Part shown: piece by piece, positions 5,590-55,930 of the stretch
Position numbering within the stretch: position 1 is the stretch's first letter
How the letters are laid out: each line of letters opens with the position of its first letter
Source: Gallionella sp.
GTDB lineage: Bacteria > Pseudomonadota > Gammaproteobacteria > Burkholderiales > Gallionellaceae
DNA length: 64,000 bases
Direction of reading: 5' to 3'
Assembly: GCA_028710565.1 (NCBI GenBank)
Contig: JAQTTV010000005.1
Coordinates: 1-64,000, forward strand
The notes under the pieces: generated by a model
Database searches by the model: none
Seen by the model: the letters and a program-made list of their open reading frames with translations, nothing else
What the model was told of the DNA's origin: nothing
Position numbers and translations under genes: made by a program

Positions 5590-5732
5590 CAATGGTATAA
5601 TTTTCTCTTATACCATTCGTCCAGTGCAATACCATTGCAAAAAACACGGTTCGACAATGGTATTAAATAAAATAAAGCTCAATAAATACGTGGGTTGTAG
5701 CGGTTTTTATGAGCTTTTATAATCATGGTATC
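5590..5732. repeat. CAATGGTAT-type repeats ahead of the integrase gene
   Basis: The motif AATGGTAT occurs at 5591-5598, inverted at 5609-5617 and 5628-5637, direct again at 5655-5664, and as CATGGTATC at 5724-5732. The first four form two inverted pairs in an AT-rich 75-bp segment. Spacing and position suit arm-type integrase or excision-factor sites, or an autoregulatory operator on the int promoter. Function inferred. Confidence 0.55.
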
Positions 5733-5748
5733 AAATTGCGGAGTGAGC

Positions 5749-6942
5749 ATGCTGACAGATACAAAATTACGGAATCTCAAGCCAGAAGCCAAGGCGTATA
5801 AGGTCAGTGACCGTGACGGCCTATATGTCACCGTTTTGACCACCGGCACGGTATCGTTCCGCTATAACTACAGCATCAATGGGCGGCAAGAGACGCTTGT
5901 GATCGGGCGCTATGGTGCAGGAGGGCTGACATTGCTGGAAGCCAGGGAGAGGCTTTCATTGGCGAAAAAAGAGCTTGTCGCTGGCAAATCACCATCCAGA
6001 GCCAAGGCGAGAGAAAAGCAAAAATCTAAAGGGGCTGATTCTTTTAGTGAATGGGCGGAGCTATGGCTTAAGAATCACCAGATGGCAGATTCAACCCGCG
6101 ATATGCGGCGATCAGTCTATGAGCGTGACCTCAAGGAGCCGTTCGGCAAGCTCAAGATGGGTGAAGTATCTCATGATGACTTGCGCGCTTTGTGTGAAAA
6201 GATCGTAGCTAGAGGCGCGCCGGCCACGGCGGTACATGCACGTGAGGTTGTGCAGTCGGTTTATCGCTATGCGCTGGAGAAAGGGCACAAACATGACAAT
6301 CCGGCTGATTTGGTGCGGCCAACTTCTATCGCTAGATTTCAACCCAAGGATCGGTCGTTATCGCCAGCAGAGATTGGCGTGATGTATCAGTACCTGGAGC
6401 ACGTTTCTACTGCGCCTACGATCAGGCTTGCGGTAAAACTGTTGCTGTTGACCATGTTGCGCAAGTCAGAGTTGGTTGAGGCTGTATGGACAGAGATCAA
6501 TTTCACTGATGCGCTTTGGACTATCCCAGGTGAGCGAATGAAGCGGCGCAATCCACACAACATTTACCTGTCGAGACAGGCCTTGGATATCTTCGTCGCT
6601 CTTAAGACTTGCGCCGGCGGCTCACGTTACGTTTTGCCATCACGCTACGATCCTGACATACCGATGAGTAAGGCGACCTTGAACCAAGTTACCAAGCTGA
6701 CTTTTATGGCTGCGCAGAAAGATGGTAAAACGCTGGATAAATTTGGGCCGCATGATTTGAGACGGACGGCATCGACGCTGCTGCATGAGGCAGGATACAA
6801 CACGGACTGGATTGAGAAATGCCTGGCTCATGAGCAAAAGGGTGTGCGCGCCGTTTACAACAAGGCCGAGTATGCAGAACAGCGGCGCGTGATGCTGCAA
6901 GACTGGGCGGACATGATAGACATGTTTGCTACACGCCCCTAA
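5749..6942 (+). CDS. int: Tyrosine recombinase / integrase (DUF4102 N-terminus)
   Basis: A 397-residue site-specific recombinase that integrates and excises the element. The N-terminal DUF4102 arm-binding domain (1-90), the core-binding SAM-like domain (about 95-190) and the catalytic domain follow in order. Catalytic residues are visible: Arg238 in LRKSE, His335 and Arg338 in HDLRR, His361 in LAHEQ and the nucleophile Tyr370 in VYNKAEY. The start at 5749 is preferred over an upstream ATG at 5725 because GGAGTGAG precedes it at proper spacing. The family includes guaA- and tRNA-specific island integrases; its position right after guaA supports guaA specificity. Confidence 0.93.
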   Translation: MLTDTKLRNLKPEAKAYKVSDRDGLYVTVLTTGTVSFRYNYSINGRQETLVIGRYGAGGLTLLEARERLSLAKKELVAGKSPSRAKAREKQKSKGADSFSEWAELWLKNHQMADSTRDMRRSVYERDLKEPFGKLKMGEVSHDDLRALCEKIVARGAPATAVHAREVVQSVYRYALEKGHKHDNPADLVRPTSIARFQPKDRSLSPAEIGVMYQYLEHVSTAPTIRLAVKLLLLTMLRKSELVEAVWTEINFTDALWTIPGERMKRRNPHNIYLSRQALDIFVALKTCAGGSRYVLPSRYDPDIPMSKATLNQVTKLTFMAAQKDGKTLDKFGPHDLRRTASTLLHEAGYNTDWIEKCLAHEQKGVRAVYNKAEYAEQRRVMLQDWADMIDMFATRP

Positions 6943-7183
6943 GCCATGGGGCTGGCGGAAGTAATGCTGCGGATTTTCGTTGTTCGATCCAGGCTTCAAT
7001 TTCTTGCAAGTCCCACGCAACCAAACGCGTTGTGATAGAAAATCGCTGTGGAAACTCCCCTCGTTTTTCCATATTGAGAATTGTTCTTTCTGAAAGAGGT
7101 ACGATTTTGAGGAGACGCTTGCGGTTAATCAGTGCCTTCCCCGGTTTTTTCATTTCCTCGAATGTCAGGTCTCGTGCGTTCAT
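6929..7183 (-). CDS. AlpA-family DNA-binding protein, probable excision factor
   Basis: An 84-residue protein with an MerR/AlpA-type winged helix: LINRKRLLKIVPLSERTILN is the helix-turn-helix, followed by the wing and an AWDLQEIEAWIEQR helix typical of AlpA/Xis-like proteins. Such proteins act as recombination directionality factors or integrase regulators. The ATG at 7183 is preferred because AAGGAGAG sits upstream; an ATG seven codons earlier is also open. It is convergent with int and overlaps its last 14 bp, so strong expression of one may interfere with the other. Confidence 0.8.
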   Translation of the reverse strand: MNARDLTFEEMKKPGKALINRKRLLKIVPLSERTILNMEKRGEFPQRFSITTRLVAWDLQEIEAWIEQRKSAALLPPAPWLRGV

Positions 7184-7280
7184 TTTGCCCTCTCCTTGCT
7201 GCATGCTTTTTTCGTATTCATAGTCCAGACTTGCTTAAATCTGCGTATTAGAAAAGCTTGAAATATCTGTTGAGGAGAAA

Positions 7281-8129
7281 TCATCCCAGTCTCCCCGATT
7301 TTGCCTTGAGTGCAATTAACCTGATTTCATCCAGTACCTTATCCGTTTGTTGCATGGCAGATCGCATGGCTACAGCCTCTTCAAATGGTGCGGTGATGTC
7401 GTATCCCTCACTGCACAGTTGATTCAGCAGCAACATGAGCGGCGACTTGAACTGCGTTGGATCAGATAGCATAGACAGCGACAGGCATGCTTTGTCAGCA
7501 TCCGGTGCAACAAAGTGCGCTTGATCTAGCATGGCGCGTGGGTACTGGTATCGTGTACCGGGCAACGTATCGTTCCTGGGCAGCGTGGCAAGAAAGGCTA
7601 CCGCTTCGAGAAAGTGCTCTGCCGGCAACTCACCACAACTGCCAATCTCGAAATGATCGTTGAAGCGACTCCAGATATCGGCGCGAACCACATCGGTGTT
7701 TTCTCCGCGCTGGGAGACGATCTGCTGCAAGGCGTTCTGTTGGACAGGGGAGAGTGCGCGCGCATCATGTGGTGTGGTGTAGCCCCCTGTTTTTCTGATG
7801 GCGGGCAGGATTTCTTTCGTTACCTTGACCTCGAAGGCTTGCGCTTCTTCTTCGTGAGAATTGATGATTAAGCGGTAGAGGTTTCCTTCGTTGATGTAGG
7901 TTAATCCCTGATTTTCACCTTCAGCATGTGAGCCGTGTTTCGCGATCCCCTTTTCACGGCAGTATTTTTTGATGGCATCGCTGTCGTTGCCATAGCCTAG
8001 AACAGCACAAACGTCCTTGGCAGAAAACCACGTCTCACCGTTGTCATCGACGAAGACGTGGATTTGAGCGCCATTAAAACTGAATACGTCGAGTGTGGCA
8101 GGACTTGTCATAGTGCTAACCACCCGCAT
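7281..8129 (-). CDS. BRO-N domain protein (phage antirepressor-like)
   Basis: A 282-residue protein whose N-terminal ~115 residues match the BRO-N fold of phage antirepressors: FSFNGAQIHVFVDDNGETWF, then AKDVCAVLGYGN and VTKEILPAIRKTGGY. The C-terminal half (about 120-282) is not recognised. BRO-N proteins bind DNA and often counteract or replace CI-type repressors. It lies in the minus-strand control module with the AlpA-like gene. The start may instead be the ATG six codons in (8111). Role in element induction is inferred from position. Confidence 0.75.
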   Translation of the reverse strand: MRVVSTMTSPATLDVFSFNGAQIHVFVDDNGETWFSAKDVCAVLGYGNDSDAIKKYCREKGIAKHGSHAEGENQGLTYINEGNLYRLIINSHEEEAQAFEVKVTKEILPAIRKTGGYTTPHDARALSPVQQNALQQIVSQRGENTDVVRADIWSRFNDHFEIGSCGELPAEHFLEAVAFLATLPRNDTLPGTRYQYPRAMLDQAHFVAPDADKACLSLSMLSDPTQFKSPLMLLLNQLCSEGYDITAPFEEAVAMRSAMQQTDKVLDEIRLIALKAKSGRLG

Positions 8130-9285: not shown

Positions 9286-9636
9286 TTATTTGGTGCCGTT
9301 GAGTAATTTTTCAGGCGAGATGAGTTCAGTATAGAAATCCCCTTCTCGCGTTAGAGCTGCGACGGCGCTATCGGGAAGTGGTTGAGCCACGGCAAGCAAT
9401 TTCTGTATTGATGGTCTGGTAAGTGCAAAGTTGCTGTCAACCTCGCCAGCGATAAGCCAGTCAAAGGAAAACGCCAAGTGTTTCCGGAGCGCTATTAAAC
9501 GATCCGTGGGTGGTGTTGCGATGCCTATTTCCCACTGAGATACAGATGCCTTGCTCACGCCGCACAGTTCACCGAATTTCTCCTGTGAAAGTGTGTTGCG
9601 CTCGCGCAATTGTCTGATTCTGACTCCTATATTCAT
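9286..9636 (-). CDS. CI-like XRE-family repressor
   Basis: A 116-residue DNA-binding protein with a clear N-terminal helix-turn-helix of the Xre/Cro-CI class (IRQLRERNTLSQEKFGELCG, then VSKASVSQWEIG, residues about 5-60). The C-terminal part is short and has no LexA-type peptidase, so it is not self-cleaving. The ATG at 9636 is used; an upstream in-frame TTG (9651) is possible. It is divergent from the replication gene at 9869, the layout of a lysogeny-type switch, and probably holds the replication and transfer genes silent. Confidence 0.85.
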   Translation of the reverse strand: MNIGVRIRQLRERNTLSQEKFGELCGVSKASVSQWEIGIATPPTDRLIALRKHLAFSFDWLIAGEVDSNFALTRPSIQKLLAVAQPLPDSAVAALTREGDFYTELISPEKLLNGTK

Positions 9637-9696
9637 TTTTTCATTGTACAACGATTTTATTCATTAAATATCTAGTAATAATTGACTTTTGTATTT

Positions 9697-9710
9697 AGTA
9701 TAAATATACT
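9697..9710. promoter_or_regulatory. Operator-like inverted repeat in the divergent control region
   Basis: AGTATA-AA-TATACT forms a near-perfect dyad in the 232-bp region between the CI-like repressor (minus) and the replication gene (plus). The same TATACTTT half-site occurs at 8745, ahead of the minus-strand operon. This repetition supports one regulator acting at both places. Confidence 0.55.
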
Positions 9711-9868
9711 TTAGGTGTGAATATGTCAATTATTTCTATATCGACCATTGTTGTCCGGTCTCTTGCGCTCGGTTTATGTCGGGTCGCAGTTCCTCAGCGG
9801 ACGCGTGTGCCAGTAGAGAGCGCTACCGATGGCGAACGATTGACTGGCATTAGCAACGAAAGAAAATC

Positions 9869-10927
9869 ATGAGACAACGCACAATCAGCGATTTTTTCTG
9901 GCGTGATCCAGAAATATCTGACCTAAGCCAGGAAGACAAAGCAACCCTGCTATATTTTTTAACCTCGCCGTCGTCAAATATCATCGGTGCTTACCAGGTA
10001 GTCTGGATGATTGCCGCAGCAGAAATGGGCTGGACGAAGGATCAGTTATTAGTGGTCGTCAAAAGACTCAAAGCCAAAGGGTTAATTGATTTCAACGACA
10101 CAGGTTGGGTTTGGGTTAAGACGTGGTGGAAGCACAACTCCGCCAAGGGCGCATTCTCTCCAAAGCTACTAGAAAATGCCAAAAAACAATGCGCTGCAAT
10201 ACCTTCCGAATGGCGAAATGATTTCGTCGAATCATTGGAATCCGTTGGAATAAATAGGGTATCTATAGGGTATCCATACGCTACCCAATACCCGATAGAT
10301 AGCCTATCCATAGGGCATGAATACCCTACCGATACCCTATCAGACCCCGCAAATTCGGGGGGGAATACCCCACCGATACCTTATTCATACCCTATCGATA
10401 GGGTATCCCATACCGTACCCCATACCCCGCCCCCTAACACTACAATATTCAATATTCAATCTACAACCACCACCACAACTACCGGTGACCCGGAATACGA
10501 TGCGTCACCCCAAGCTCCAAAAACAGTGGTGGTGAATGATTTAATTTTCCCACCTGGAATAACCCCAGAACAATGCAGCGCCATCCAGACGCTGCTCGCC
10601 AGCAGCGGGGTAGCACCTGGTCATTGGCAGTCCATCCTCGATGAAATGCACGGTGCACAACTCGTCGTCCCCATCGGAAACCCTGTGGGGTACGTTCGAG
10701 GCATCGCCAAGCGAGCTTCAGAAGGCTCTTTTGCCCCCGAACGGGGATTGGCGGTAGCGAACCAGCGGGAAATGCGCAGAAACCTGGAGCGGCAAGACGC
10801 TTTGCGGATTAGCGCACAGCACAAAACTCAAGCCGTCGAAATTCAACTTGACCAGTTACCAGACCATCTTCGTAAATCTTTAAGCCGGATTTTAGCCAGC
10901 AAAGCCAAAGAGGCCGCAGGTGCATAA
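9869..10927 (+). CDS. Phage-type replication initiator (lambda O / DnaD-like role)
   Basis: A 352-residue protein. The N-terminal ~110 residues form a winged-helix region (SDLSQEDKATLLYFLTSP, then VVVKRLKAKGLIDF) seen in phage and plasmid replication organisers. The middle (about 125-205) is low complexity, built of Y-P-I/T-D-S/T-L-S units encoded by the iteron array, and is followed by a Thr-rich linker. The C-terminal part (about 220-352) is helical. The gene product is expected to bind repeats within its own gene and recruit the host helicase. It is divergent from the CI-like repressor and overlaps the next gene by 8 bp, so it probably heads the operon. Exact family not identified. Confidence 0.7.
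   Translation: MRQRTISDFFWRDPEISDLSQEDKATLLYFLTSPSSNIIGAYQVVWMIAAAEMGWTKDQLLVVVKRLKAKGLIDFNDTGWVWVKTWWKHNSAKGAFSPKLLENAKKQCAAIPSEWRNDFVESLESVGINRVSIGYPYATQYPIDSLSIGHEYPTDTLSDPANSGGNTPPIPYSYPIDRVSHTVPHTPPPNTTIFNIQSTTTTTTTGDPEYDASPQAPKTVVVNDLIFPPGITPEQCSAIQTLLASSGVAPGHWQSILDEMHGAQLVVPIGNPVGYVRGIAKRASEGSFAPERGLAVANQREMRRNLERQDALRISAQHKTQAVEIQLDQLPDHLRKSLSRILASKAKEAAGA
10254..10406. repeat. Intragenic iteron array, candidate replication origin
   Basis: The 10-mer ATAGGGTATC occurs at 10254-10263 and 10265-10274 (11 bp apart, one helical turn). Its exact complement GATACCCTAT is at 10331-10340. A perfect 20-bp palindrome made of two facing copies lies at 10387-10406. Degenerate copies are at about 10288-10296, 10309-10318, 10321-10328 and 10375-10384. 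An AT-rich stretch (10441-10466, with ATATTCAATATTCAAT) follows at once and could be the unwinding element. This is the layout of lambdoid origins, where iterons lie inside the O gene. Confidence 0.7.
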
Positions 10928-11228
10928 CTCGCTCCAAAAAGACATCGTTACACTCAACCGACGATACCTCTTGCTCGTCAAGCAAATGGCATCCGCAAAG
11001 CATCCGTTGCTTTGCGTCAGTGTTCCAAAGTTTCTCGCCAAAAAAGTGAACGACATGACGCTTGAGGAGATAGATCAACTGGCGGAAGACATGATTGCAC
11101 CGTGCTTTTACATGAATCTGGACGAGACTACTTTCAACCAAATGGAAGCGAAAATTCCCGGCGTGCACCGCAAAGCCTACATGACAAACGTTTTAGTTAC
11201 CCGACTACAAACCGATGAGCAACGATAA
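10920..11228 (+). CDS. FlhD-like transcriptional activator subunit (SetD/AcaD type)
   Basis: A 102-residue protein resembling FlhD over its length: the N-terminal LNRRYLLLVKQMAS matches the FlhD segment INLSYLLLAQRLI, and MTLEEIDQLAEDM matches LTLPQMVKLAETN. FlhD-like subunits pair with an FlhC-like zinc protein to form an activator; on SXT/R391 ICEs and IncA/C plasmids this pair (SetCD, AcaCD) turns on transfer genes. The GTG start at 10920 overlaps the end of the replication gene by 8 bp, and its 3' end overlaps the FlhC-like gene by 14 bp, indicating translational coupling. Identification is by recalled similarity. Confidence 0.75.
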   Translation: MHNSLQKDIVTLNRRYLLLVKQMASAKHPLLCVSVPKFLAKKVNDMTLEEIDQLAEDMIAPCFYMNLDETTFNQMEAKIPGVHRKAYMTNVLVTRLQTDEQR

Positions 11229-11718
11229 CCAATTCATCAAAACCCGAATCCTCGCGGCATCCCTAATCAAAGACGGGATGCGCATTGCCCTTGCGCATTC
11301 AATCACGGGCCTGTCTTGGAGAACGCTCCGCGAGCTATGGGAGGAAATCCATGGGGCAGATGTCCCGCCGCCAGGCCGAATGCCTTGCGACACACTGGCT
11401 TATATCAAAAATGGTCAGTCGTCTCTTTCACTCTCTACGGTGGTCTCCGTCTATTTGTCCGCAGAAAAAGAACATCGAACACCCACGGATGCTTTTTCTC
11501 AAGCATGGGAAATAGCCAAGCTGTTCTCGGTTGACGGTAAAAAAATTGACATCAATGCCGCGTGGTACGCAATCCGGGACGTTAAAGCAGGACTGCTGTC
11601 TTGGAGTAAGTGCAGAAATTGCAAAGCAGAACATATTTTTGATACAGGAACCAAAAAACCCAGCAAATGCCCTTATTGTGGAACGACAGGCAGCAAGATG
11701 CTGGAGGTGGCTCAATGA
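11215..11718 (+). CDS. FlhC-like transcriptional activator subunit (SetC/AcaC type)
   Basis: A 167-residue FlhC-family protein. The LSWRTLRELWEEIHGADVPP segment parallels FlhC LSRGRLIKLYKELRGSPPP, and four cysteines (133, 136, 152, 155) form two CxxC pairs matching the FlhC zinc site. With the preceding gene it would form a heteromeric activator of the tra operon and possibly of int/xis. It overlaps the FlhD-like gene at the start and the transglycosylase gene by 4 bp at the end, so activator and first transfer gene are coupled. Confidence 0.82.
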   Translation: MSNDNQFIKTRILAASLIKDGMRIALAHSITGLSWRTLRELWEEIHGADVPPPGRMPCDTLAYIKNGQSSLSLSTVVSVYLSAEKEHRTPTDAFSQAWEIAKLFSVDGKKIDINAAWYAIRDVKAGLLSWSKCRNCKAEHIFDTGTKKPSKCPYCGTTGSKMLEVAQ

Positions 11719-12818
11719 CGTTTCGCACTCGCACCATTGTCTTCACCAGCGCAATGCTGCTCTCACAACTCGCGCAACTTGCCAGTGCTGCCGACCTTGG
11801 ATGTTTTGCGCAAGCATCATCGCGCTATAGCATTCCAGAGGAGCTCCTTCGAGCAATTTCCAGAGTTGAATCTGGCGGCAACCCTGTGGCCATAAACAAA
11901 AACAAAAATGGCACTTTCGATATTGGTCACATGCAAATTAACTCCGCATGGCTGCCAACCCTCGCTAAATACGGGATCACCAGAGACCGCTTAACAGACT
12001 CGTGCGTCAACACTCATGTTGGAGCCTGGATATTGGCTGGCAATTTTCACCGCATGGGGTACGGGTGGAAAGCGGTTGGCGCGTACAACGCAAAATCGCC
12101 GGTCAAAGCCGCCGCCTACGCCAGACAAGTAGCGGACATTCTTCGTTATGAAACAAACAAGGAAATCAAATTGACTAAGCACCGCGCCGTCATCGCGATC
12201 TTATTGACATCGTGCGCGATGTTATCGGGCTGCGGGAATCTATTTAAGAGCAGCCTGAATGGCATTGCGGCGATCAGCCAGCCGAGCATCGGCTACCTTG
12301 ACGGAAAATACAGAATTTGCCGTGAAAACTGTCCCAAACGCACACCCAAGGAATTGGATGATTCGGATTCCTTGCCAAACTCAACCTTATTGGTTGCCAA
12401 CAAACAGGCGACCACAAATCCGCCTCAAGCTCCGCAGCAATCAACTGAAACGCCAGCCAATGCAACAGACAAGACTACCGAAACCTTTGAGGTGTATTTC
12501 GATTTTGGTATGAGCAAGCCAAACCGCAACGGGCAAAAAGAACTAGATCGCTTTGTGCTGCTTGCATCCAAACAAAGCATCGGCCTTATTGAATTGACCG
12601 GGCAAACCGATGATATCGGCACTCGAAATTACAACAACAGGCTGGCGTTGAAGCGTGTTCAGTTTGTTACTAGCTGGCTCAAGTCACACGGCATAAATAC
12701 GACGATTTCCGCTTCATCCAAGGGGGATTGCTGTCACCCCGCGCCATACAACAAAGAGGAATTGGTACTCAAAGAAAAGCGGCGAGTGTCAATCAAGGCG
12801 CAGCAAAATCAACAATAA
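11715..12818 (+). CDS. Lytic transglycosylase fused in frame to an OmpA-like lipoprotein
   Basis: A 367-codon frame. Residues 1-27 are a signal peptide; 30-150 are an SLT lysozyme-like domain with the catalytic Glu in SRVESGGNPVAI and GHMQINSAW, the size of F-plasmid Orf169/VirB1, which opens peptidoglycan for the secretion channel. From codon 153 a second, lipoprotein-type signal (LTKHRAVIAILL, lipobox LSGC) appears, then a linker and an OmpA/MotB-type domain (about 255-365: FEVYFDFGMSKPNRNG, GQTDDIGTRNYNNRLALKR) that binds peptidoglycan. A TTG codon at 12171 behind AAGGAA would start the lipoprotein separately. Either a real fusion or two proteins from one frame. The first ATG after the FlhC-like gene (11715) is used. 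Confidence 0.75.
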   Translation: MTFRTRTIVFTSAMLLSQLAQLASAADLGCFAQASSRYSIPEELLRAISRVESGGNPVAINKNKNGTFDIGHMQINSAWLPTLAKYGITRDRLTDSCVNTHVGAWILAGNFHRMGYGWKAVGAYNAKSPVKAAAYARQVADILRYETNKEIKLTKHRAVIAILLTSCAMLSGCGNLFKSSLNGIAAISQPSIGYLDGKYRICRENCPKRTPKELDDSDSLPNSTLLVANKQATTNPPQAPQQSTETPANATDKTTETFEVYFDFGMSKPNRNGQKELDRFVLLASKQSIGLIELTGQTDDIGTRNYNNRLALKRVQFVTSWLKSHGINTTISASSKGDCCHPAPYNKEELVLKEKRRVSIKAQQNQQ

Positions 12819-12923: not shown

Positions 12924-13133
12924 TTGATTAAATCAAAAAAATTCATCTTTGATCTCGTCGCAGCAGGCGGCTTCATCGCGCTGGGCATGTTTGTGCCGGG
13001 TTCGACTTTGACTGACGCAAACGGATTCGCCGCCAATATCGCCGGTATTTCGACTGGCTTAGGTATTGGTTGGCTCATCAAAACATTTATTGATTACACA
13101 AAGGAAGTAAAAAATGAAAGCAAAAGCAATTGA
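12924..13133 (+). CDS. Small membrane protein ahead of the pilin gene
   Basis: A 69-residue protein with two hydrophobic segments (about 8-25 and 36-54) and a charged tail. It starts with TTG at 12924, preceded by a strong AAGGAGAAA ribosome site. It overlaps the pilin gene by 20 bp and is the first gene after a 105-bp gap, so the structural tra operon may have its own promoter there. Not recognised as a known Tra protein; could be a regulator or processing partner of pilin. Confidence 0.6.
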   Translation: MIKSKKFIFDLVAAGGFIALGMFVPGSTLTDANGFAANIAGISTGLGIGWLIKTFIDYTKEVKNESKSN

Positions 13134-13407
13134 TCTGCGCATCCTCGCCTTGCTGGGTGCGATGTTTCTACCCACTTTCGCTGTAGCCGGTACGACAGGA
13201 ACGGAATTCTTGACCTTGTACACATGGATCAACGGTGTGGCGACTGGCTATGCTGGCCGCGCAATCGCCATTGCAGCCGTGGTGATTGGTGCCTTGCTGT
13301 CTGTCGCAAAAGGCAATCCAATCCCTATTCTCGTGGGTGTCGGTTTTGCGATTTTCTTGCAATACACGCCGACGATTGTTAACGGAATTATGACCGCTAC
13401 GATCTAG
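13114..13407 (+). CDS. traA: TraA-like conjugative pilin
   Basis: A 97-residue pilin precursor. The long leader (1-25) ends in FAVAG, and the mature ~70 residues hold two hydrophobic helices (IAIAAVVIGALLSVA and IPILVGVGFAIFLQ) separated by a short KGNP loop, the standard F-type/VirB2 pilin layout. It forms the conjugative pilus. The next gene is traL, as in F and SXT clusters. A hairpin follows the stop codon. Confidence 0.8.
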   Translation: MKAKAIDLRILALLGAMFLPTFAVAGTTGTEFLTLYTWINGVATGYAGRAIAIAAVVIGALLSVAKGNPIPILVGVGFAIFLQYTPTIVNGIMTATI

Positions 13408-13470: not shown

Positions 13471-13758
13471 GTGAAAGCAGGATACATACCTCGCACACTC
13501 GATCAGCAGGAGAAATTCCTGCTGTGGGACATTGACCAATTCATTATTGCCATCCTGATTATGGGTACAGGGGTGTCGCTTGGCATGATGATTGGCGGCA
13601 TTGTGGCGGGCAGCGTATCCGCATGGCAGTACGGAAAATTCAAAGCCGGTAAGCACCAAAAGTTTGCGGTTCATGCGATGTACTGGTGGTTACCCAGCAG
13701 TCTGTTTGTTAAAACGCGCACAACTCCATCATCAGACCAGCGATATTTTTTAGGCTAA
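13471..13758 (+). CDS. traL: TraL, pilus assembly (VirB3-like)
   Basis: A 95-residue inner-membrane protein starting with GTG behind GGAAG. The N-terminal YIPRTLDQQEKFLLWDIDQF motif and the double hydrophobic segment (25-50) are typical of F-type TraL. TraL works with TraE and the TraC ATPase at the base of the channel. It lies in the standard traA-L-E-K-B order. Confidence 0.88.
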   Translation: MKAGYIPRTLDQQEKFLLWDIDQFIIAILIMGTGVSLGMMIGGIVAGSVSAWQYGKFKAGKHQKFAVHAMYWWLPSSLFVKTRTTPSSDQRYFLG

Positions 13759-13761
13759 ACA

Positions 13762-14352
13762 GTGACACCAGAAAAATTTATTACAACAAGCAGCAACAAA
13801 GCCAGAGAGATTACTTTTCTTCGATTAGTAGTTGGCGCGCTTATTGTCATTATTGTGATTGAAGGCGCGACGCTATTCAGAACATTGGGCATGGAACGAA
13901 CCGTACTCGTGCCGCCGACGATTGAGAAGAGCTTTTGGGTATCGGGCGAGGGCGTATCAAAAAGCTACCTTGAGCAGATGGCGTACTGGTACGCCGGACT
14001 CGCATTGAACGTTACTCAGACCACAGGCAATTACCAAAAAGACCTTTTCTTGCGTTATTCAACGCCGGCAGGCGCGGGACAACTAGCGGCAGAAATGACA
14101 GCCAGACTGGATTTTCTTGCCAAAAATAACGCTGCCACCCTATTTACAGCGCAGACATTAAACACCGACGAAAAACTAATGAAGGTTGCGATCACCGGCG
14201 ACTTGGACACCTTCGTAGGAGACAAGCGCATCTCGACCAGGCGCACTATTTATGTGATTGGTTTCAGGTACATAAACGGGAGACTTTTTGTTAATGAGTT
14301 CAAGGAAACAAATGAAAAAGATATTTTTGGTGTCAGCACTCCTGGCAAGTAG
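13762..14352 (+). CDS. traE: TraE, pilus assembly (VirB5/VirB8-like role)
   Basis: A 196-residue protein with one N-terminal membrane helix (about 21-43, LRLVVGALIVIIVIEGATLF) and a periplasmic domain, the TraE family layout and length. GTG start three bases after traL. It overlaps the start of traK by 41 bp. TraE is an inner-membrane channel component. Confidence 0.88.
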   Translation: MTPEKFITTSSNKAREITFLRLVVGALIVIIVIEGATLFRTLGMERTVLVPPTIEKSFWVSGEGVSKSYLEQMAYWYAGLALNVTQTTGNYQKDLFLRYSTPAGAGQLAAEMTARLDFLAKNNAATLFTAQTLNTDEKLMKVAITGDLDTFVGDKRISTRRTIYVIGFRYINGRLFVNEFKETNEKDIFGVSTPGK

Positions 14353-14983
14353 CTTTCAGTGCCTGGCCGCTCAGATTTTGTATCAAGGCTCACCCACAGA
14401 GTCAACAACGGCCACCGTGTCGCGCAACGAACCTAATCTAATCACGGTGGACGGTCGCAAAATCAAGCGTATCTATGGTGCGGAAGGCTTGTTTACGGTC
14501 ACACCAGAACCAGAAACGGGCGCGGCTTGGCTAAAACCAACCGCCGACAAGCCAATGATGAGCGTCTTCATTACCGATGAAGAAGGCCAGCATTACAAGC
14601 TGCTGCTAAAGGTGGAAGATATTCCTGCGGAAACAATTATCGTGAAAGGCGGAAACAAGCAACCCGGCCTCGTAATAAGCAAAAGAAACGAGCCGCGCAA
14701 TGATGACATCTTGAACACGGTCATCGCGCTTTTCAATGGCGATGGCGATACAAAAAACGAAACCATCTCGCTATGGAAAGGCACCCGCTTCGAGTTAATA
14801 AGAACGCTCGATTTAAGGGGGATTCGTGGTGAGTCCTACCTGCTCACCAACACATCCAACAAGCCCATTATTATGGACGAACGGGAGTTCTACCGCGCCG
14901 GTGTGCAGGCCGTGTCGATAGAAAATCCGACACTCGAAGCCGGGCAGACCACACAAGTCTTTATTGTTAGCGAGGCTGAATAA
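14312..14983 (+). CDS. traK: TraK, secretin-like outer-membrane channel protein (VirB9-like)
   Basis: A 223-residue exported protein: signal peptide MKKIFLVSALLASSFQCLAA, then a beta-rich domain with the TraK pattern EPNLITVDGRKIKRIYGAEG. The ATG at 14312 is chosen because AAGGAAAC precedes it and the signal peptide begins there, though the frame is open 24 bases further upstream. With TraB and TraV it forms the core complex spanning the envelope. Its stop overlaps the traB start. Confidence 0.9.
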   Translation: MKKIFLVSALLASSFQCLAAQILYQGSPTESTTATVSRNEPNLITVDGRKIKRIYGAEGLFTVTPEPETGAAWLKPTADKPMMSVFITDEEGQHYKLLLKVEDIPAETIIVKGGNKQPGLVISKRNEPRNDDILNTVIALFNGDGDTKNETISLWKGTRFELIRTLDLRGIRGESYLLTNTSNKPIIMDEREFYRAGVQAVSIENPTLEAGQTTQVFIVSEAE

Positions 14984-16209
14984 TGGCCTCCCTATCAGAA
15001 AAATTTGCCGACATGACTCCCAAAACTCGCCAATACATCATGCTGGGAGGTGCAGGTGCGGGGTTAATGGCCTTGGTTCTCGGCAGCGTATCTCTTATGG
15101 ATAGTCAGCCTTCGGTCACGCCCGCTCCGACCACATCAGCCGAACAGCAAGCCACCAACATCTCAACGCCTGGGGCCGCCGCAGACCCAAAGGAGGTGTG
15201 GATGACGCAATCTGCCGCACAAATGAAACAGATGGATGATGTCGTCAAAGAGCTGAAGCAGCAAATGGCAGCAATGGAAGCAAAATCAGGAGTAATGCAG
15301 ACCGGACAACCCGAGTCATTGTTGCCACCACTGCCGCCTATCCCGCCGCCGGTAGCACCAATAACACAGCTACCTTTAGCGACTGGCGAGCCACCCAGAG
15401 TTTTGTCAGAACCCGCTCAGCCTAAAGAGCCGGGTATCGCGTCGTTTGAGGTGAGCCAGACCGCCAAACCCACCACACCCGCACAGCAAGACACAAATGC
15501 CGGTTATGTACCAGCCGGATCGTTTGTGCGTGTTGCACTCTTGGGAGGCCTCGACGCACCAACAGGTGGGCAGGCGCAAACCAACCCCCATCCAATCCTG
15601 ATGCGCGCTCAGGACAATGCATTTTTGCCAAACCGCTACCGATTTGAAATCAAGGAATGCTTCATTCTGGCATCGAGTTACGGAGACATCAGTTCGGAAA
15701 GAGCGTTTGGCCGACTCGAAAATTTGTCGTGCGTTCGCCGCGATGGTAGGGCCGTGGATATTCCGGTTAAGGGATATGTCGTGGGCGAAGATGGAAAAGC
15801 CGGGATGCGGGGGCGGCTTATCAGCAAGCAAGGGCAGGTGCTCGCCAACGCATTGTTGGCGGGCATAGGCTCAGGGATTGGTCAGGCCTTTCAGAATAGC
15901 TCATCTACGCAATCAATCAGCCCGCTTGGAACAACCTCAACGGTCAACCAGGGGCAGCAATTACAAAACGGCATCAGCTCTGGCGTAGGCAAAGCCTTGG
16001 ACAGACTGAGCAAGTATTACATCGACCTCGCAGAAAAATTGTTCCCTGTAATTGAAATTGATGCAGGGCGAACGGTTGAGGTGGTCTTCACCAAAGGCTT
16101 CTCAATGGACGATTTAAGCCAGGACCCGTCAATCGGGACGTATAGCGACATTTGGCAGCGCGGACGAAAAGTGATGGGTAAGGCACTTGATCCTTCCGAA
16201 CCTCAATAA
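14983..16209 (+). CDS. traB: TraB, core-complex scaffold (VirB10-like)
   Basis: A 408-residue protein with an N-terminal membrane helix (about 16-34), a coiled coil (about 70-100), a Pro-rich linker (about 110-170) and the VirB10/TraB beta-barrel domain (VPAGSFVRVALLGGLDAPT, then ILASSYGDISSERAFGRL and AGRTVEVVFTKG). It links inner and outer membranes and passes energy to the channel. It starts on the last base of the traK stop codon. Confidence 0.93.
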   Translation: MASLSEKFADMTPKTRQYIMLGGAGAGLMALVLGSVSLMDSQPSVTPAPTTSAEQQATNISTPGAAADPKEVWMTQSAAQMKQMDDVVKELKQQMAAMEAKSGVMQTGQPESLLPPLPPIPPPVAPITQLPLATGEPPRVLSEPAQPKEPGIASFEVSQTAKPTTPAQQDTNAGYVPAGSFVRVALLGGLDAPTGGQAQTNPHPILMRAQDNAFLPNRYRFEIKECFILASSYGDISSERAFGRLENLSCVRRDGRAVDIPVKGYVVGEDGKAGMRGRLISKQGQVLANALLAGIGSGIGQAFQNSSSTQSISPLGTTSTVNQGQQLQNGISSGVGKALDRLSKYYIDLAEKLFPVIEIDAGRTVEVVFTKGFSMDDLSQDPSIGTYSDIWQRGRKVMGKALDPSEPQ

Positions 16210-16223
16210 AAAGGAGACTATCC

Positions 16224-16958
16224 ATGAAATACAAAGCCAGGCTACTTGCCATGTTGTTATTGATTTGCGTGACCGCAGCCCACGCTGGCAACGGGAGGGA
16301 TAGCAGCGCAGAAAAGGACGTTGCAAATACGTTGCGCGATCTCTACCCGTCAACGCAGATCAGCGATGTGCGCAAAACCGGTATTGAAGGGATTTACGAA
16401 GTGGCTATGGGCAAAAATATTGGCTACACAAATAGCGAGGGGCGTTACTTTCTGTTTGGTCATATTTTTGACATGAAGACCCAGCAAGACTTAACAGCCC
16501 AACGTCTTGACGAGCTAAACGTAGTGAATTTTTCGGAGTTGCCTCTTAAGGATGCCATTAAGACTGTGCGCGGCAAGGGCGAGCGGGTACTGGTGATTTT
16601 TTCCGACCCGGACTGCCCTTATTGCAAGAAGCTGGAGCAAGAGCTACTTAAACTGAACAATGTGACGATCTACACCTTCCTGATGCCCTTGGATGGGCTG
16701 CATCCAGAGGCATCCAAAAAAGCAAAGGGGATATGGTGTTCAACCGACAAGTCAGCCGCGTGGCGCGACTACATGCTGCACGACAAAGCACCTGTGACAG
16801 ACAAGCACTGCGATAGCCCGATTGATCGCAATGTTCAGCTCGGCCAAAAGTTCAACATCAATGGCACGCCCACACTGATCGCCGCTGACGGTCGCGTATT
16901 GCCAGGGATGGCGGCAGCAGAGCAAATCGAGAAATGGCTAAACAAGGAGCAAAAATAA
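16224..16958 (+). CDS. dsbC: DsbC-family disulfide isomerase of the transfer cluster
   Basis: A 244-residue periplasmic protein: signal peptide (1-21), dimerisation domain (about 25-95) and thioredoxin domain with the active site CPYC at residues 131-134 and cis-Pro loop GTPTLI. DsbC homologues are common in F-type, SXT and IncA/C clusters, where they fold cysteine-rich Tra proteins. Here it lies between traB and traV. Strong AAAGGAG ribosome site. Its TAA overlaps the traV start. Confidence 0.93.
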   Translation: MKYKARLLAMLLLICVTAAHAGNGRDSSAEKDVANTLRDLYPSTQISDVRKTGIEGIYEVAMGKNIGYTNSEGRYFLFGHIFDMKTQQDLTAQRLDELNVVNFSELPLKDAIKTVRGKGERVLVIFSDPDCPYCKKLEQELLKLNNVTIYTFLMPLDGLHPEASKKAKGIWCSTDKSAAWRDYMLHDKAPVTDKHCDSPIDRNVQLGQKFNINGTPTLIAADGRVLPGMAAAEQIEKWLNKEQK

Positions 16959-17479
16959 TGCGTGTTGGGATTTTAGCAATGGTGGCTTGCTTGAGCATCA
17001 CCGGATGCAGCATGGTAGGACTTGATGCCCAAAAGTCGTTCACCTGCAAAGCACCACCGGGCATCAACTGTTCATCACTATCGGGGGTCTATGCCAATGC
17101 TGTTGCCGACAATCTGCCCGGTTCGGCAGCAAAACCAACCTCCACGTACAGCAAGGAAAATCAAGCCAAGGTAGCCGAGAGGGTCGTTGGTGACGCTCCT
17201 CAAACGGGTACGCCCGTATTGAGTGCGCCAAGCGTATTGCGCGTGTGGGTTGCGCCGTGGGAAGACGGCAGGAAAGTGTTGCACGATCAGGCATTCCTGT
17301 ATGCCGTTGCCGATTCGGGGCATTGGCAAGTGGCTCATAGCACCCAAAAAATTGCCAACCAATATCGTGTCATGGCACCGACTGCAAAGCCACAATCCGC
17401 ATCATCGCAACCGGCGGTACCGCAATCAATGTTGCCACAAAGCCAGTTTGGGCAAGAGCAATCACAAGGGTCAAATTAG
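16958..17479 (+). CDS. traV: TraV, outer-membrane lipoprotein of the channel (VirB7-like)
   Basis: A 173-residue lipoprotein: signal with lipobox SITGC (cysteine about residue 17), then a TraV-type segment with paired cysteines (FTCKAPPGINCSSLSGVY) and the later LRVWVAPWEDGRKVLHDQAF motif. The C-terminal tail is rich in Gln, Pro and Ser. The ATG at 16958 overlaps the dsbC stop. TraV anchors TraK and TraB at the outer membrane. Confidence 0.88.
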   Translation: MRVGILAMVACLSITGCSMVGLDAQKSFTCKAPPGINCSSLSGVYANAVADNLPGSAAKPTSTYSKENQAKVAERVVGDAPQTGTPVLSAPSVLRVWVAPWEDGRKVLHDQAFLYAVADSGHWQVAHSTQKIANQYRVMAPTAKPQSASSQPAVPQSMLPQSQFGQEQSQGSN

Positions 17480-17480
17480 C

Positions 17481-20066
17481 ATGTCTTTCACAAGCGCACT
17501 CAAAAATATCTTTCTGCATGAGAGATATGGTCGTGCCGATGCGATTCCACGTCATTTGATCGAGCAATTCACCAGCACCCCCAGACTGGCCGGTTTGTTG
17601 CCCTACGTTGGCTGGATTCCAACCGAACGGTTGTTTATCCTGGATCAAGGCGGCTTCGGCAAAAAAGAGCAGTTTTCAATTGGCTTTGCCATCGAGATTG
17701 ACCCACAGACCGGTGCAACTGATGAAATGGAGAAAATACTGTCCAGCCTGTTCGATTCGTGCATGGCTAAAACAGGCATCCAGATTTCACTGTACGCATC
17801 ACCAGATATCGCACCTATGTTGAAAAAACAAAAAGACACGGTGCGAGTAAGCGAGCTGGCTGGGATAACGACGCGACGCAATGAATACTACATGGGGGGT
17901 ACGTCCAAATCACTGCTAGCCAACAGGGTGTATTGGTTGCGCAATTTCAGGTGTGTTATTTCGATCACGTTACCACTTTCCCCTTTTGAAGTGGGGGATG
18001 TAGAAGAGGCGATCAGGACGCGTGAGAGTGTCCGTGCAACACTCAGGTCGGCGAACTTGGATGGGTTTGACTGGACCCCGGATCACCTGCTGGATTTTGT
18101 GGGCGATTTCTTCGATCACGAGCGGGTGTTTTGTCCTGAGAAGCGCAGCGAGTTGTCCTTGAGTTACAACCCAAACCAAATAATTCGCGAACAATTGTCC
18201 AACCGCGAAATTGCATCCTGCGTTAGCGATGAAGGCATCCGGTCTTGCAAGAGCGGCGGCCAAGAAACGGTTATGCAGTTTTTCTCGGTCAGGAACTACC
18301 CGAAATATAGCCGCTTGAATCACATGAGCAGCGTAATTGGCGACCCATACCAAGCTGCCCTGGCAATGCCATGCCCATTCTTGATCACCATGGGTGCGGT
18401 TGTGCAAGATTACGAATCCGCACGCACTTATGCGCAACTGAAAAGTGCTCGCGCCACACAGAACGCGGCCTCGTACATGGCAAGATTTCAGCCAGACTTA
18501 CAAGATCGCAAGCGTGACTGGGATGCTGTGCTGGGTGCTTTTGATGAAGGCAAGGGGACGTTGCGCATGTACCACCAAATCTGCCTGCTATCGACAAAAG
18601 CCGATGCATCCCGTGCTGAGCACGCGGTTAGATCGGTGTGGCGTGCGAGAGGTTTTGATCTGTCGCGCGACTATTATTTGCAGCACCAAGCATTTGTCGC
18701 ATCGCTACCAATGACGCTAGGACAACCATTGCAAGAAGACTTGGTTGCATTCGGGCGGTCGTACACCAAGACACTCGACAACGCAGTGATGACATCGCCG
18801 TTGATTGCCGAGTGGAAGGGAACCAAGACTCCGCTGATTACCCTGTTCGGGCGGCGCGGACAACCGATGGGGTTCGATCTGTTTGACAACACGGGTGGCA
18901 ACTACAATTTTGCGGTGGCCGCGTTATCCGGGTCTGGCAAGTCGGTGTTCGTGAATGAAATGGCGTACCGCTATCGTGCAGCCGATGCCAAAGTCTGGAT
19001 TATTGACGTAGGCCGCAGTTACAAAAATTTGTGCGAATTGATGGGCGGCGAATTCATTGAGTTTACTGACGAGCGTGACAATACGCTGTGCCTCAATCCA
19101 TTCTCGATGGTCAGGGACATCAACAACGACATGGAAATGTTGCTTCCTCTCCTGGCTGAAATGGCGAGTCCGCGTGAGCCACTGAACAACTTTTGCTATA
19201 CCGCACTTGCTTCCGCTATCAAGCAGGTATGGGGAGTGAAGGGGAGCGACACCACCATCACGGACATTTACGAACTGCTACGCATTGGCAAAATCAATGA
19301 GAGTTCTGATAGCGAAACGGAGTTGATGCACATGGCCGTCGCACTTGAACCCTACACAAAATACGGCGTATATGCGAGCTACTTTGAAGGTCCTGCAACA
19401 ATTGAATTTAACAATGACTTTATCGTGCTTGAGCTTGAGGAACTCAAGAGTAAAAGAGACCTTCAGGCAGTGGTTATGCAGATCATCATGTATCGCATCA
19501 CCCAGGAAATGTATCTGGATCGCTCACGGCGCAAGATCGTGATTATTGATGAGGCGTGGGACTTGATGGGGAGCGGCAGCAGCGGACACTTCATCGAAGC
19601 CGGTTATCGCAGGGCAAGAAAGTACGGCGGTGCATTCGGCACGATCACCCAAAGCGTGGATGACTACTACAAGACGGAAGCAACCAAAGCAACCATCAAT
19701 AATGCGGACTGGCTGTTCTTACTGCGGCAGAAGCCGGAAAACATTGACCGTCTAGGCAAAGAAGGCAAGCTCACCATCGATGAGTGGATGAAACGCCAGC
19801 TTTCCTCTATCACCACCGATCATGGCAATTACTCGGAAATCTTTGTGCATAGCCCGATGGGATCCGGGATTGGTCGCTTACTGCTTGATCCGTTCTCAAT
19901 GATGCTGTTCTCCACACGCGCTGAAGATTTCGAGCGGATAAAGACCATGCGCGAGCAAAACAACATGACGACCGAACAGGCTATCGAGGTACTGCTTAAC
20001 GAAAGAATCAAAAATGACAGGCGCAAAGGAACGCGCGAGGACAGACGAAAAATGGGACTTTTTTAA
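17481..20066 (+). CDS. traC: TraC, VirB4-family secretion ATPase
   Basis: An 861-residue ATPase driving pilus assembly. Walker A is LSGSGKSV (Lys487), Walker B is KIVIIDEAWDLM (Asp690-Glu691), with a conserved Gln-containing ITQSVDDYYK motif following. The start at 17481 (ATG two bases after the traV stop) is preferred over the 86-codon upstream extension, which only shadows traV. Length matches TraC of F-type systems. Confidence 0.95.
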   Translation: MSFTSALKNIFLHERYGRADAIPRHLIEQFTSTPRLAGLLPYVGWIPTERLFILDQGGFGKKEQFSIGFAIEIDPQTGATDEMEKILSSLFDSCMAKTGIQISLYASPDIAPMLKKQKDTVRVSELAGITTRRNEYYMGGTSKSLLANRVYWLRNFRCVISITLPLSPFEVGDVEEAIRTRESVRATLRSANLDGFDWTPDHLLDFVGDFFDHERVFCPEKRSELSLSYNPNQIIREQLSNREIASCVSDEGIRSCKSGGQETVMQFFSVRNYPKYSRLNHMSSVIGDPYQAALAMPCPFLITMGAVVQDYESARTYAQLKSARATQNAASYMARFQPDLQDRKRDWDAVLGAFDEGKGTLRMYHQICLLSTKADASRAEHAVRSVWRARGFDLSRDYYLQHQAFVASLPMTLGQPLQEDLVAFGRSYTKTLDNAVMTSPLIAEWKGTKTPLITLFGRRGQPMGFDLFDNTGGNYNFAVAALSGSGKSVFVNEMAYRYRAADAKVWIIDVGRSYKNLCELMGGEFIEFTDERDNTLCLNPFSMVRDINNDMEMLLPLLAEMASPREPLNNFCYTALASAIKQVWGVKGSDTTITDIYELLRIGKINESSDSETELMHMAVALEPYTKYGVYASYFEGPATIEFNNDFIVLELEELKSKRDLQAVVMQIIMYRITQEMYLDRSRRKIVIIDEAWDLMGSGSSGHFIEAGYRRARKYGGAFGTITQSVDDYYKTEATKATINNADWLFLLRQKPENIDRLGKEGKLTIDEWMKRQLSSITTDHGNYSEIFVHSPMGSGIGRLLLDPFSMMLFSTRAEDFERIKTMREQNNMTTEQAIEVLLNERIKNDRRKGTREDRRKMGLF

Positions 20067-20112
20067 CACGAAGATCGAGTCGAAAACTTTATTCACATAA
20101 GGAAACTAAAAA

Positions 20113-20307
20113 ATGGCAAACAACATGAAACGCAAAGTCGTCCGTCGCATCATTGAACGCTGCAAGACCGAAGAAAAGCGGGCAAGGGACATTGCTGGCG
20201 AGCTAAAAAATGCGGGCTACAAGGTATTTACTGCGTCTTTCTGCCTGTGTGAGGACGTGGTGTTTTTTGATACTCATGCAGGCTTGCAGATTCGCATCAT
20301 CGCTTAA
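20113..20307 (+). CDS. Small basic hypothetical protein between traC and trbI
   Basis: A 64-residue protein with a basic helical N-terminal half (KRKVVRRIIERCKTEEKRA) and a hydrophobic beta-like C-terminal half. Ribosome site AAGGAAA precedes the ATG. It is co-oriented in the tra operon, 46 bp after traC. No family recognised. Confidence 0.55.
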   Translation: MANNMKRKVVRRIIERCKTEEKRARDIAGELKNAGYKVFTASFCLCEDVVFFDTHAGLQIRIIA

Positions 20308-20319
20308 TCGGGAAACAAA

Positions 20320-20682
20320 ATGTCCACTCTCGCTCACCTCACCACTGGCGTTGTCTCGGCAACGGTCACTATCGCAGTCTTGGCCGGATGGCAACATTTT
20401 CACCCCGCGCCCGCAATGGCGAAGGTGGACATTATCGGCATTGTCACTTCGCAACAAAAGAGATTGGCCGCGCAAATGAAGCCCGGCATGGATCAGACCG
20501 CCCAAACGGAAATCATTGAGTCCGCTTCGCGCTTTGGCAAACAGCTTGATGCCGCGCTTACCCAGGTGGCAGGCGAGTGCAGATGTACGCTCATCAACTC
20601 GGCTGCGATTATCAAAGATTCACCTGGCACCAACTACGATTACACACAGCGCGTCACTGAGCTGGCCTTGGGCAAGAAGTAA
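20320..20682 (+). CDS. trbI: TrbI-like F-type transfer protein
   Basis: A 120-residue protein with an N-terminal membrane anchor (about 7-25) and a small periplasmic domain with the VDIIGIVTSQQKRLAAQM and CTLINSAAIIKDSPGTNYD pattern seen in F-type TrbI. TrbI affects pilus length and retraction. It follows traC as in F, but the next gene is traF, not traW. Confidence 0.65.
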   Translation: MSTLAHLTTGVVSATVTIAVLAGWQHFHPAPAMAKVDIIGIVTSQQKRLAAQMKPGMDQTAQTEIIESASRFGKQLDAALTQVAGECRCTLINSAAIIKDSPGTNYDYTQRVTELALGKK

Positions 20683-20685
20683 TCC

Positions 20686-21507
20686 ATGCGCCTGGCTATC
20701 CCAACTTTGCTTGCTTTGATGACCGCGTTAGTGCCGACCTCATCGTTCGCACTGGAAGGACGAGATTATCCATCAGGCATGGAATATTCATCTGCATGGG
20801 CGTGTCATGGTCAGGAAAAGTTTAACTGGTACTGCGAAGAAACAGCACGGCCAGCCAAGAAGCCCAAAGAAATCAGCGCATCTGAAAAATCGGAAAAGAC
20901 TAAAGAAGAGCTCGCTGTCGAAGAGCTGGAGAAAATACGCAAAGACCTTGATGCCAAGCGCGCGCTGGCCGTGGTGCATCCCACCGCAGAAAACATCAAA
21001 TCGTACATGGCCGCGCAGAAGGTTGAAATCCACCGGGCCAGCTATTTTGCGGATATATGGCGGCGTGTCCTGTGGCAAAACGCCGAGCTGAACTTTGAAC
21101 TTAAAAATCCAATGAATAACTCCGCCATCAAGGTGGCAACGCGAGACCGGGATGCCAGGCAAAACAACACGATGGCCGACCTTGCCAAAGAGTGGGGGAT
21201 ATTCTTCTTCTTTCGGGGTGATTGCCCCTATTGCAAGCACATGGTGCCGACCTTGCAATGGATTACCCGCCAATACGATATGACAATTTTACCGATCAGT
21301 TTGGATGGATCAACGATTGACGGGTTGCCTCCCTCGGTTAAAGACAACGGTCTATCCGCAAAGCTGGGGGTAGATGCCGTGCCGCTGTTTGTGCTCGGTA
21401 ATGTCAAAACACACAAAATGGTCATTCTTGGTTCGGGCGTGTTGTCGTTGCAGGACTTCGTTGAGCGGATTTATGTGTTGACTCAAACCAAACCCGGCGA
21501 TCTCTAA
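20686..21507 (+). CDS. traF: TraF-like thioredoxin-fold pilus assembly protein
   Basis: A 273-residue exported protein: signal peptide (1-22), a Lys/Glu-rich helical stretch (about 50-95) and a thioredoxin-like domain with an intact CPYC at 180-183 and a cis-Pro in VDAVPLFVLG. F TraF lacks the CxxC, which is instead on TrbB; this protein seems to combine the roles. It would help fold the outer-membrane complex with DsbC. Confidence 0.85.
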   Translation: MRLAIPTLLALMTALVPTSSFALEGRDYPSGMEYSSAWACHGQEKFNWYCEETARPAKKPKEISASEKSEKTKEELAVEELEKIRKDLDAKRALAVVHPTAENIKSYMAAQKVEIHRASYFADIWRRVLWQNAELNFELKNPMNNSAIKVATRDRDARQNNTMADLAKEWGIFFFFRGDCPYCKHMVPTLQWITRQYDMTILPISLDGSTIDGLPPSVKDNGLSAKLGVDAVPLFVLGNVKTHKMVILGSGVLSLQDFVERIYVLTQTKPGDL

Positions 21508-21519
21508 AAGGATTTCATC

Positions 21520-55914: not shown

Positions 55915-55930
55915 AGTGAAAAGCATCGTT

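Follow-up and report, generated by a model that had tools for sequence, protein, structure and literature searches.

FlhDC-type activators have been found to control the transfer of conjugative elements. AcaCD and SetCD, the activators of IncA/C and SXT/R391 elements, are required for transfer (PMC4207636, PMC4542580) and serve several separate operons (PMC4207636, PMC4344509). In the IncT element Rts1, the loss of orf246 or orf247 brought transfer down to under 0.0001 of wild type (PMC10838148), and in ICEclc the FlhDC-like BisDC runs the transfer competence of the integrative and conjugative element (PMC7423338). Here we analyze a pair of overlapping flhD- and flhC-like genes on contig JAQTTV010000005.1 of a Gallionella sp. 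assembly (GCA_028710565.1), a bacterium from among the iron oxidizers. The window, i.e. the whole stretch of DNA that was analyzed, comprises bases 1-64000 of this 148,999-base contig, in an assembly of 3.27 Mb. Judged by its surroundings, the pair is carried by an element integrated after guaA, and it very probably encodes a heteromeric, zinc-containing activator of the FlhDC/SetCD/AcaCD family that switches on the conjugative transfer of this element. Coordinates of all features are collected in Table 1.

The product of the flhC-like gene scored above the curated cut-off of Pfam family PF05280 (38.8 bits against 27, E 1e-9) and was the sole match to this family found in the assembly. With the single sequence as query, E. 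coli FlhC was recovered from the PDB sequences at E 1.7e-5, and with a profile of 11 sequences, the window protein included, 2avu_E was found at E 8e-16; all 11 sequences match PF05280 at E 0.1 or better. The four cysteines that the earlier note had taken for zinc ligands, C133, C136, C152 and C155, are invariant in this alignment, and the CxxC...CxxC pattern was present in all 46 FlhC rows examined. Among nine FlhC homologs in the plasmid collection, five already carried the name 'FlhC family transcriptional regulator'.

The partner is a less obvious relative. As a single sequence, the FlhD-like protein matched the NCBIfam FlhD model at E 0.032 and had no match among the PDB sequences at E up to 10. 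A profile of 12 sequences, which was composed of the window protein, its tblastn matches and genes selected for their position beside flhC (one member, from a Methylomonas plasmid, carried a prior FlhD annotation), ranked three FlhD sequences first to third in the PDB (E 3.4e-7, 1.5e-6 and 2.2e-6), with the next match at 0.056. A wider profile of 36 sequences found FlhD at 9.1e-6 to 2e-5 and the next match at 0.11. Seven of the 12 sequences match PF05247 at E 0.1 or better, the best at 2.6e-8. The AlphaFold model obtained with the 36-row alignment reached a pLDDT (predicted local distance difference test) of 85.4 and superseded a poor model made from the single sequence (65.6). In a Foldseek search with this model, ranks 1-10 of 24 were chains of FlhD-bearing PDB entries with chain lengths fitting FlhD, and the best match was 2avu_B (template modelling score 0.76/0.74, probability 1.00). 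By family profile and predicted fold the weak partner is thus now linked to FlhD, as a homologue. The two overlapping FlhD- and FlhC-like genes proposed by the earlier note therefore hold, both as open reading frames (ORFs) and by family, FlhC through its Pfam score and FlhD through profile and fold.

The scan of the genome_contigs collection yielded 44 loci, within which four further loci (L050-L053), identical to L063, L070, L069 and L076, were counted once; the viral_contigs scan yielded one locus, identical in sequence to L080. In 43 of the 44 loci flhD lies upstream of flhC, overlapping it or within ~250 nt (a spacing seen in L095, L096, L097, L099 and L100), and the contig of the 44th begins inside flhC, so the pair is not a chance arrangement. 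In class A (20 loci) the pair stands before pilus genes. The FlhC proteins of this class are 51-100% identical to that of the window and stem from contigs titled Gallionella, Sideroxydans, Candidatus Nitrotoga and other, mostly betaproteobacterial, metagenome-assembled genomes. The order rep-flhD-flhC-slt-pilin-traL, where rep is the adjoining replication gene and 'slt' an arbitrary cut of the longer SLT/OmpA ORF used as query, is kept in the 20 loci as far as each contig extends (flhD 19/20, rep 18/20, slt 20/20, pilin 19/20, traL 18/20). The misses coincide with contig starts or ends; the two contigs that lack rep start at flhD or inside flhC. In class B (24 loci, FlhC identity 28-37%) MobH is seen in 9/24 loci, with the pair standing before it; flhD is present in 24/24 and a divergent helix-turn-helix (HTH) gene in 12/24. 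That the pair has decayed to a non-functional remnant, as the low Pfam score of FlhD might suggest, is barely credible given the open frames in the relatives read, the retention of zinc cysteines and gene overlaps, and a nonsynonymous rate below the synonymous rate (dN < dS) in every non-identical pair among eight sequences compared, a comparison made without a significance test.

In the FlhC tree of 46 rows, all 32 element rows were split from 14 flagellar-labelled rows with a support of 100/99, the label being given by sequence rather than by neighbouring genes. The flagellar rows derive from 21 loci, of which six gave no tblastn match and L044 was left out. The element rows consist of 12 of class A (11 of the 20 loci plus the window), 17 of class B (14 of the 24 loci plus three plasmid rows), AcaC of pRA1, the SetC-like protein of Rts1 and one Methylomonas plasmid. 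Class A forms a single clade (100/99), which is joined with class B at 100/97. AcaC and the Rts1 protein fall on the non-flagellar side, in line with the kinship to SetCD and AcaCD put forward in the earlier note, but the exact place of these and other rows is unsure because the program warns of long branches. Considering the homology to FlhDC, the pair might instead cross-talk with the host as a substitute for a flagellar or other host master regulator. We regard this as highly improbable, as the element and flagellar-labelled rows are separated in the tree and differ in the second cysteine half (CPxC in the 32 versus C[GA]xC in the 14), and the host assembly held, besides the one PF05280 match, a single weak PF05247 match, both being this pair. 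A role as flagellar switch was rejected, given that searches of the host assembly turned up neither a flagellin nor a further FlhC.

An FlhC match at E 0.001 was obtained in 98 of 300 genomes of the order, nine of them at E 2.8e-23 or better; the cut for element-type FlhC was placed after the gap between E 2.8e-23 and 2.0e-9 had been seen. MobI (PF19456) was found in 12 of the 300, with 11 over the cut-off. The two sets share eight genomes against 0.36 expected (P 3e-12), and six against 0.23 (P 1.6e-9) when the Gallionella genome itself and its 99% twin are left out, in both cases with genomes treated as independent. By this count, element-type FlhC is associated with the MobI type of transfer. 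A profile search at E 1e-15, which returned four of 369 genomes including the own one, was not used, as one of the four (G093) was flagellar-labelled and the threshold fails to separate the groups.

Judged by overlaps and order, the pair forms the second and third genes of an operon that runs into the pilus genes. The earlier note had placed it downstream of a replication gene, which is right as to the adjoining gene; the product resembles a phage DnaD-like helicase loader, however, and the RPA-type initiator is encoded separately at 54997. The proposed coupling to the first transfer gene is borne out by the ATGA at 11715-11718 in which flhC ends and which is able to start the next gene, here a transglycosylase (SLT) gene. 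The start at 11715 was our choice; the first possible start in the ORF list is 11667, and the ORF read from there matched SLT at E 2e-18 and OmpA at E 4e-7 (Pfam). SLT and OmpA are encoded by one ORF in the window and by two overlapping ORFs in the eight nearest relatives, which may reflect either a fusion special to the window copy or a sequence error.

The gene of a CI/Cro-type repressor is transcribed away from rep, and a promoter with an inverted repeat lies between the two. AATTGAC, TTGAC[TA]/TATACT at 17-nt spacing and GTCAATTA are kept in all 13 aligned rows (the window plus 12 of the 14 repressor-bearing loci), which span two clades, while the bases flanking these elements vary between the clades. 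The stretch 9682-9710 gave 10/12 matches in a sigma-70 promoter scan, in which the whole region contained four promoter-like matches against a shuffle mean of 5.2, so there was no excess. The repressor is kept at 86-98% identity in 14 of the 20 class A loci, and the same 14 contain the gene of a BRO-N protein, which in the window lies beyond the repressor gene with one listed ORF in between. The CI-like repressor that the earlier note described upstream of the pair is thus present and divergent over a conserved promoter, but the likeness to SetR does not extend to its S24 domain: the eight Pfam families listed for the 121-aa protein included HTH types but no S24. SetR, which responds to RecA, contains a LexA-like S24 domain (PMC4542580); for a repressor without S24 a RecA-induced self-cleavage is not expected. 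The BRO-N/Ant-type protein would be a candidate antagonist that releases the repressor.

Given these features, the following scheme may be proposed. In the quiet state the CI-like repressor would occupy the symmetric site that surrounds the rep promoter, thereby blocking the operon. Once repression is lifted, possibly through the nearby BRO/Ant-type anti-repressor, the activator pair would be made from one message together with the helicase loader, the transglycosylase/OmpA protein and, perhaps, the pilus proteins encoded downstream. FlhD and FlhC would then form a DNA-binding complex that switches on the distant operons mobI-traD and MobH-traWUN as well as excision. We tentatively extend this to a one-promoter transfer switch, a possibility that we rate somewhat below even: a single CI-repressed sigma-70 promoter would yield a coupled message that encodes the master activator along with the replication loader and the first part of the pilus operon. 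Excised copies would then multiply, and the level of the activator would rise with that of the machine it serves. Release would come from a phage-type anti-repressor instead of SOS self-cleavage. The accessible text of PMC4207636, PMC10838148, PMC4344509 and PMC4542580 does not describe such wiring for SetCD/AcaCD elements. Alternatively, the pair could act mainly in cis and feed forward as a co-activator on its own operon and the pilus genes, with the distant mob operons under other control (e.g. by the repressor, or constitutive). The position of the pair as genes 2 and 3 of an operon entering the pilus genes would fit this, as would the lack of a convincing box common to the regions upstream of the distant operons. 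Yet the activators of known relatives act on several separate operons (PMC4207636, PMC4344509), and the tie of the pair to the pilus operon is not general, since MobH follows the pair in nine of the 24 class B loci. We consider an action in cis unlikely and retain the pair as activator of the transfer of the element.

Several results weigh against this role. The FlhD protein on its own stayed below the cut-off of PF05247 (17.7 bits against 27, E 0.0044), so that the HMM search called for by the earlier note was passed by FlhC only, and the Foldseek E values of the FlhD ranks were only 0.012-0.38, none under 0.001. The search for activator sites gave no convincing result either: a dyad of the form 4-N(0..16)-4 was shared by at most four of 12 upstream regions, and 10 shuffled sets gave four or five. 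Gibbs sampling of seven window regions gave a 16-mer with an information content of 11.89 (largest of eight controls 11.40) and a 19-mer with 13.11 (12.89), only slightly above all eight controls. Among 12 orthologous regions the Gibbs motif stood out in just three, at pilin of L069, alpA of L073 and cI/rep of L071, where at most five of 100 shuffles did as well; the last match coincides with promoter sequence, which is conserved in any case, and the motif was kept as a hint and not as evidence. The AcaCD core motif GCCCAAAATGGGC (PMC5058578) had no match in the window with up to two mismatches, against 3.0 expected by chance, and the 25 matches with exactly three mismatches on the plus strand of the contig were judged noise. 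The shared operator that had been predicted upstream of 12924, 56196, 54997 and int could thus not be recovered in convincing form by dyads, Gibbs sampling or orthologous regions. The boxes of SetCD and AcaCD are reported to be unlike those of FlhDC and unlike each other (PMC4207636, PMC4344509), and because of these differences a missing box does not speak against an activator role.

The comparison with described systems makes clear which parts of the locus are shared. In pRA1, for which the names acr1 and acaD were assigned here from position and Pfam, FlhC and FlhD domains are likewise encoded by adjacent overlapping genes with a transglycosylase gene beside the pair and an HTH repressor gene in the module, and MobI, MobH and F-type mating-pair formation genes (by the typing of the record) are found as well. 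Unlike the window, the order is HTH(acr1)-slt-acaD-acaC, all in one direction, the pair is not at the head of the pilus operon and AcaD has 202 aa instead of 102; AcaD itself reached only 27.4 bits for FlhD (Pfam). An FlhDC-type activator is described for SXT/R391 as well, preceded there by a CI-like repressor and a sigma-70 early promoter (PMC4542580), and the SXT-type TraD is shared; SetR differs from the window repressor by its S24 domain. In Rts1 the pair orf246/orf247, both genes of which are needed for transfer, is accompanied by the slt gene orf248 and mobI orf252 (PMC10838148). There the FlhD-like partner had no Pfam match at E 0.1 and, unlike in the window, the order is slt-setD-setC near mobI, >30 kb from traB. 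BisD of ICEclc has a ParB domain and BisC was assigned DUF2857, yet compared with FlhC (PMC7423338), whereas the window pair matched neither domain at E up to 1 (Pfam). DUF2857 (PF11198) matches six of the 12 element FlhD proteins (best E 1.6e-4), for which reason a re-examination of both BisDC subunits may be worthwhile.

The window element shares its backbone with pSTJ2 of Sulfuricystis multivorans, where SLT, OmpA, pilin, traL-C, traF, MobI and TraD were matched by window proteins, TraH and TraG are annotated and MobH is 46% identical. In contrast to the window element, pSTJ2 is a plasmid and not integrated; its FlhC (37% identical) is placed before S26-MobH, and flhD and flhC lie ~5.6 kb apart with an insert instead of overlapping (14134-14406 and 19980-20435 of locus L012). 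The genes that part flhC from this flhD, which is annotated as hypothetical, include those of a RAMP CRISPR-associated protein and a helicase.

On this comparison, the combination of pair, transglycosylase and MobI is an already known arrangement, and the neighbourhood to a transfer gene, which the earlier note had regarded as special, is shared: the transglycosylase gene adjoins acaD in pRA1 and setD in Rts1 too. Neither is the backbone a different one, as had been supposed, since the SXT_TraD match (Table 1), MobI, MobH and the F-type genes are of the SXT/IncA-C type. What appears to be new is the wiring, with the pair after a replication gene and leading into pilus genes, and the lineage; the repressor without S24 and the nearby anti-repressor gene differ as well. 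We found no published account of this element among the matches listed, a search whose coverage excludes most subscription journals. Transfer activators of the FlhDC type have been studied best in resistance elements of Gammaproteobacteria; probable members are now seen in a set of elements from Gallionella, Sideroxydans, Nitrotoga and Rhodocyclales. The data suggest that the pair and the MobI/MobH/F-type machinery remain together, whereas the position of the pair and its repressor are exchanged, and the two classes, with the pair before pilus genes or before MobH, make the evolution of the switch testable.

Table 1. Features of the guaA-integrated element and its flank (window coordinates)
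Feature	Position	Strand	Basis and remarks
guaA	3869-5452		left of int
Tyrosine integrase (int)	5725..6942	+	PF00589 E 5.7e-22; just 3' of guaA
AlpA/excisionase-like gene	6929..7204	-	PF05930 E 8.7e-9; phrog_2790 excisionase
BRO-N/phage anti-repressor-like gene	7281..8129	-	PF02498 E 1.1e-19; phrog_130 anti-repressor E 1.5e-37
CI/Cro-type HTH repressor, 121 aa as listed	9286..9651	-	HTH_3 E 1.5e-13
rep-flhD-flhC promoter, putative repressor operator	9679..9732	.	TTGACT-17-TATACT (9682-9710) within AATTGAC...GTCAATT inverted repeat
Operon gene 1 (rep), DnaD-like helicase loader/replication protein, 352 aa	9869..10927	+	phrog_1701 E 5.1e-16 (phage)
flhD-like gene, 102 aa	10920..11228	+	GTG start; 8 nt overlap with upstream gene
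flhC-like gene, 167 aa	11215..11718	+	PF05280; 14 nt overlap with flhD
Putative zinc-site codons C133, C136, C152, C155 of FlhC	11611..11679	+	CxxC...CPxC; zinc binding predicted
Lytic transglycosylase (SLT) + OmpA domains, one ORF	11715..12818	+	ATGA-coupled to flhC
Small hydrophobic ORF before pilin gene	12924..13133	+	105 nt after SLT/OmpA; in 11/20 class A loci
TraA-family pilin	13114..13407	+	NF041281 69.1 bits, cut-off 50
traL, E, K, B, dsbC, traV, C, F, H, G (mating-pair formation)	13471..26348	+	Pfam TraL, TraE, TraK, TrbI, DsbC_N, TraV, TraC_F_IV, TraF, TraH, TraG_N
RPA-type replication initiator	54997..55914	+	PF10134 E 8.3e-32; flanked by repeats
mobI	56196..56642	+	PF19456 E 9.2e-30
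traD coupling protein, SXT type	57021..58838	+	TIGR03743 (SXT_TraD) 614.9 bits, cut-off 366

The 3' end of guaA was found left of int in the window and in all eight relatives for which the flank was read, on which basis guaA is taken as the insertion site. SXT inserts at prfC, in contrast to this element. With the guaA 3' end as query, nothing convincing that could represent the right attachment site was recovered on the own contig, which ends beyond the MobH operon. A stretch of 86% identity on another contig (C36) was rejected as attachment site, being the end of a second guaA gene; this second gene, near 31662 of C36, is 81% identical to the window guaA over 528 columns.

The transfer machinery is assigned to the SXT/IncA-C type, with interspersed cargo, because an SXT-type TraD, MobI, MobH and F-type genes were matched. 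Outside the window, the same contig encodes TraN, TrbC, TraU, TraW, the MobH relaxase (337 bits, cut-off 200) and S26 at 140.5-148.3 kb. Of these, traW, traU, trbC and traN accompany MobH at 140.5-147.7 kb, on the opposite strand; a scan of the ORFs lying between traC and traF (window 20067-20685) detected none of the four. MobI and MobH homologs were present in all five genomes searched, the own one included. In three of these (the own G000, G115 and G071) flhC, mobI and MobH are on one contig, whereas in G154 and G273 flhC and MobH are on separate contigs. Since pSTJ2, G115 and G071 keep flhC, mobI and MobH together, the MobH operon probably belongs to the same element.

The RPA gene is flanked by repeats ~51-61 nt apart, of the GGAATTC type before it (54706-54856) and of the CCAAACGTTCCGC type after it (55929-56055). 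These repeats look iteron-like and possibly mark an origin. Repeats of the TTCCGC type recur upstream of mobI in the relatives. The cargo at 28-53 kb of the window is of the metal-efflux type, with two resistance-nodulation-division (RND) pumps and a heavy-metal P-type ATPase. Beyond the window, at 64.07-77.58 kb of the contig, the cargo is of the defence type: BrxA, BrxB, BrxC and PglX (BREX), GajA-GajB (Gabija) and PtuA (Septu) are encoded consecutively.

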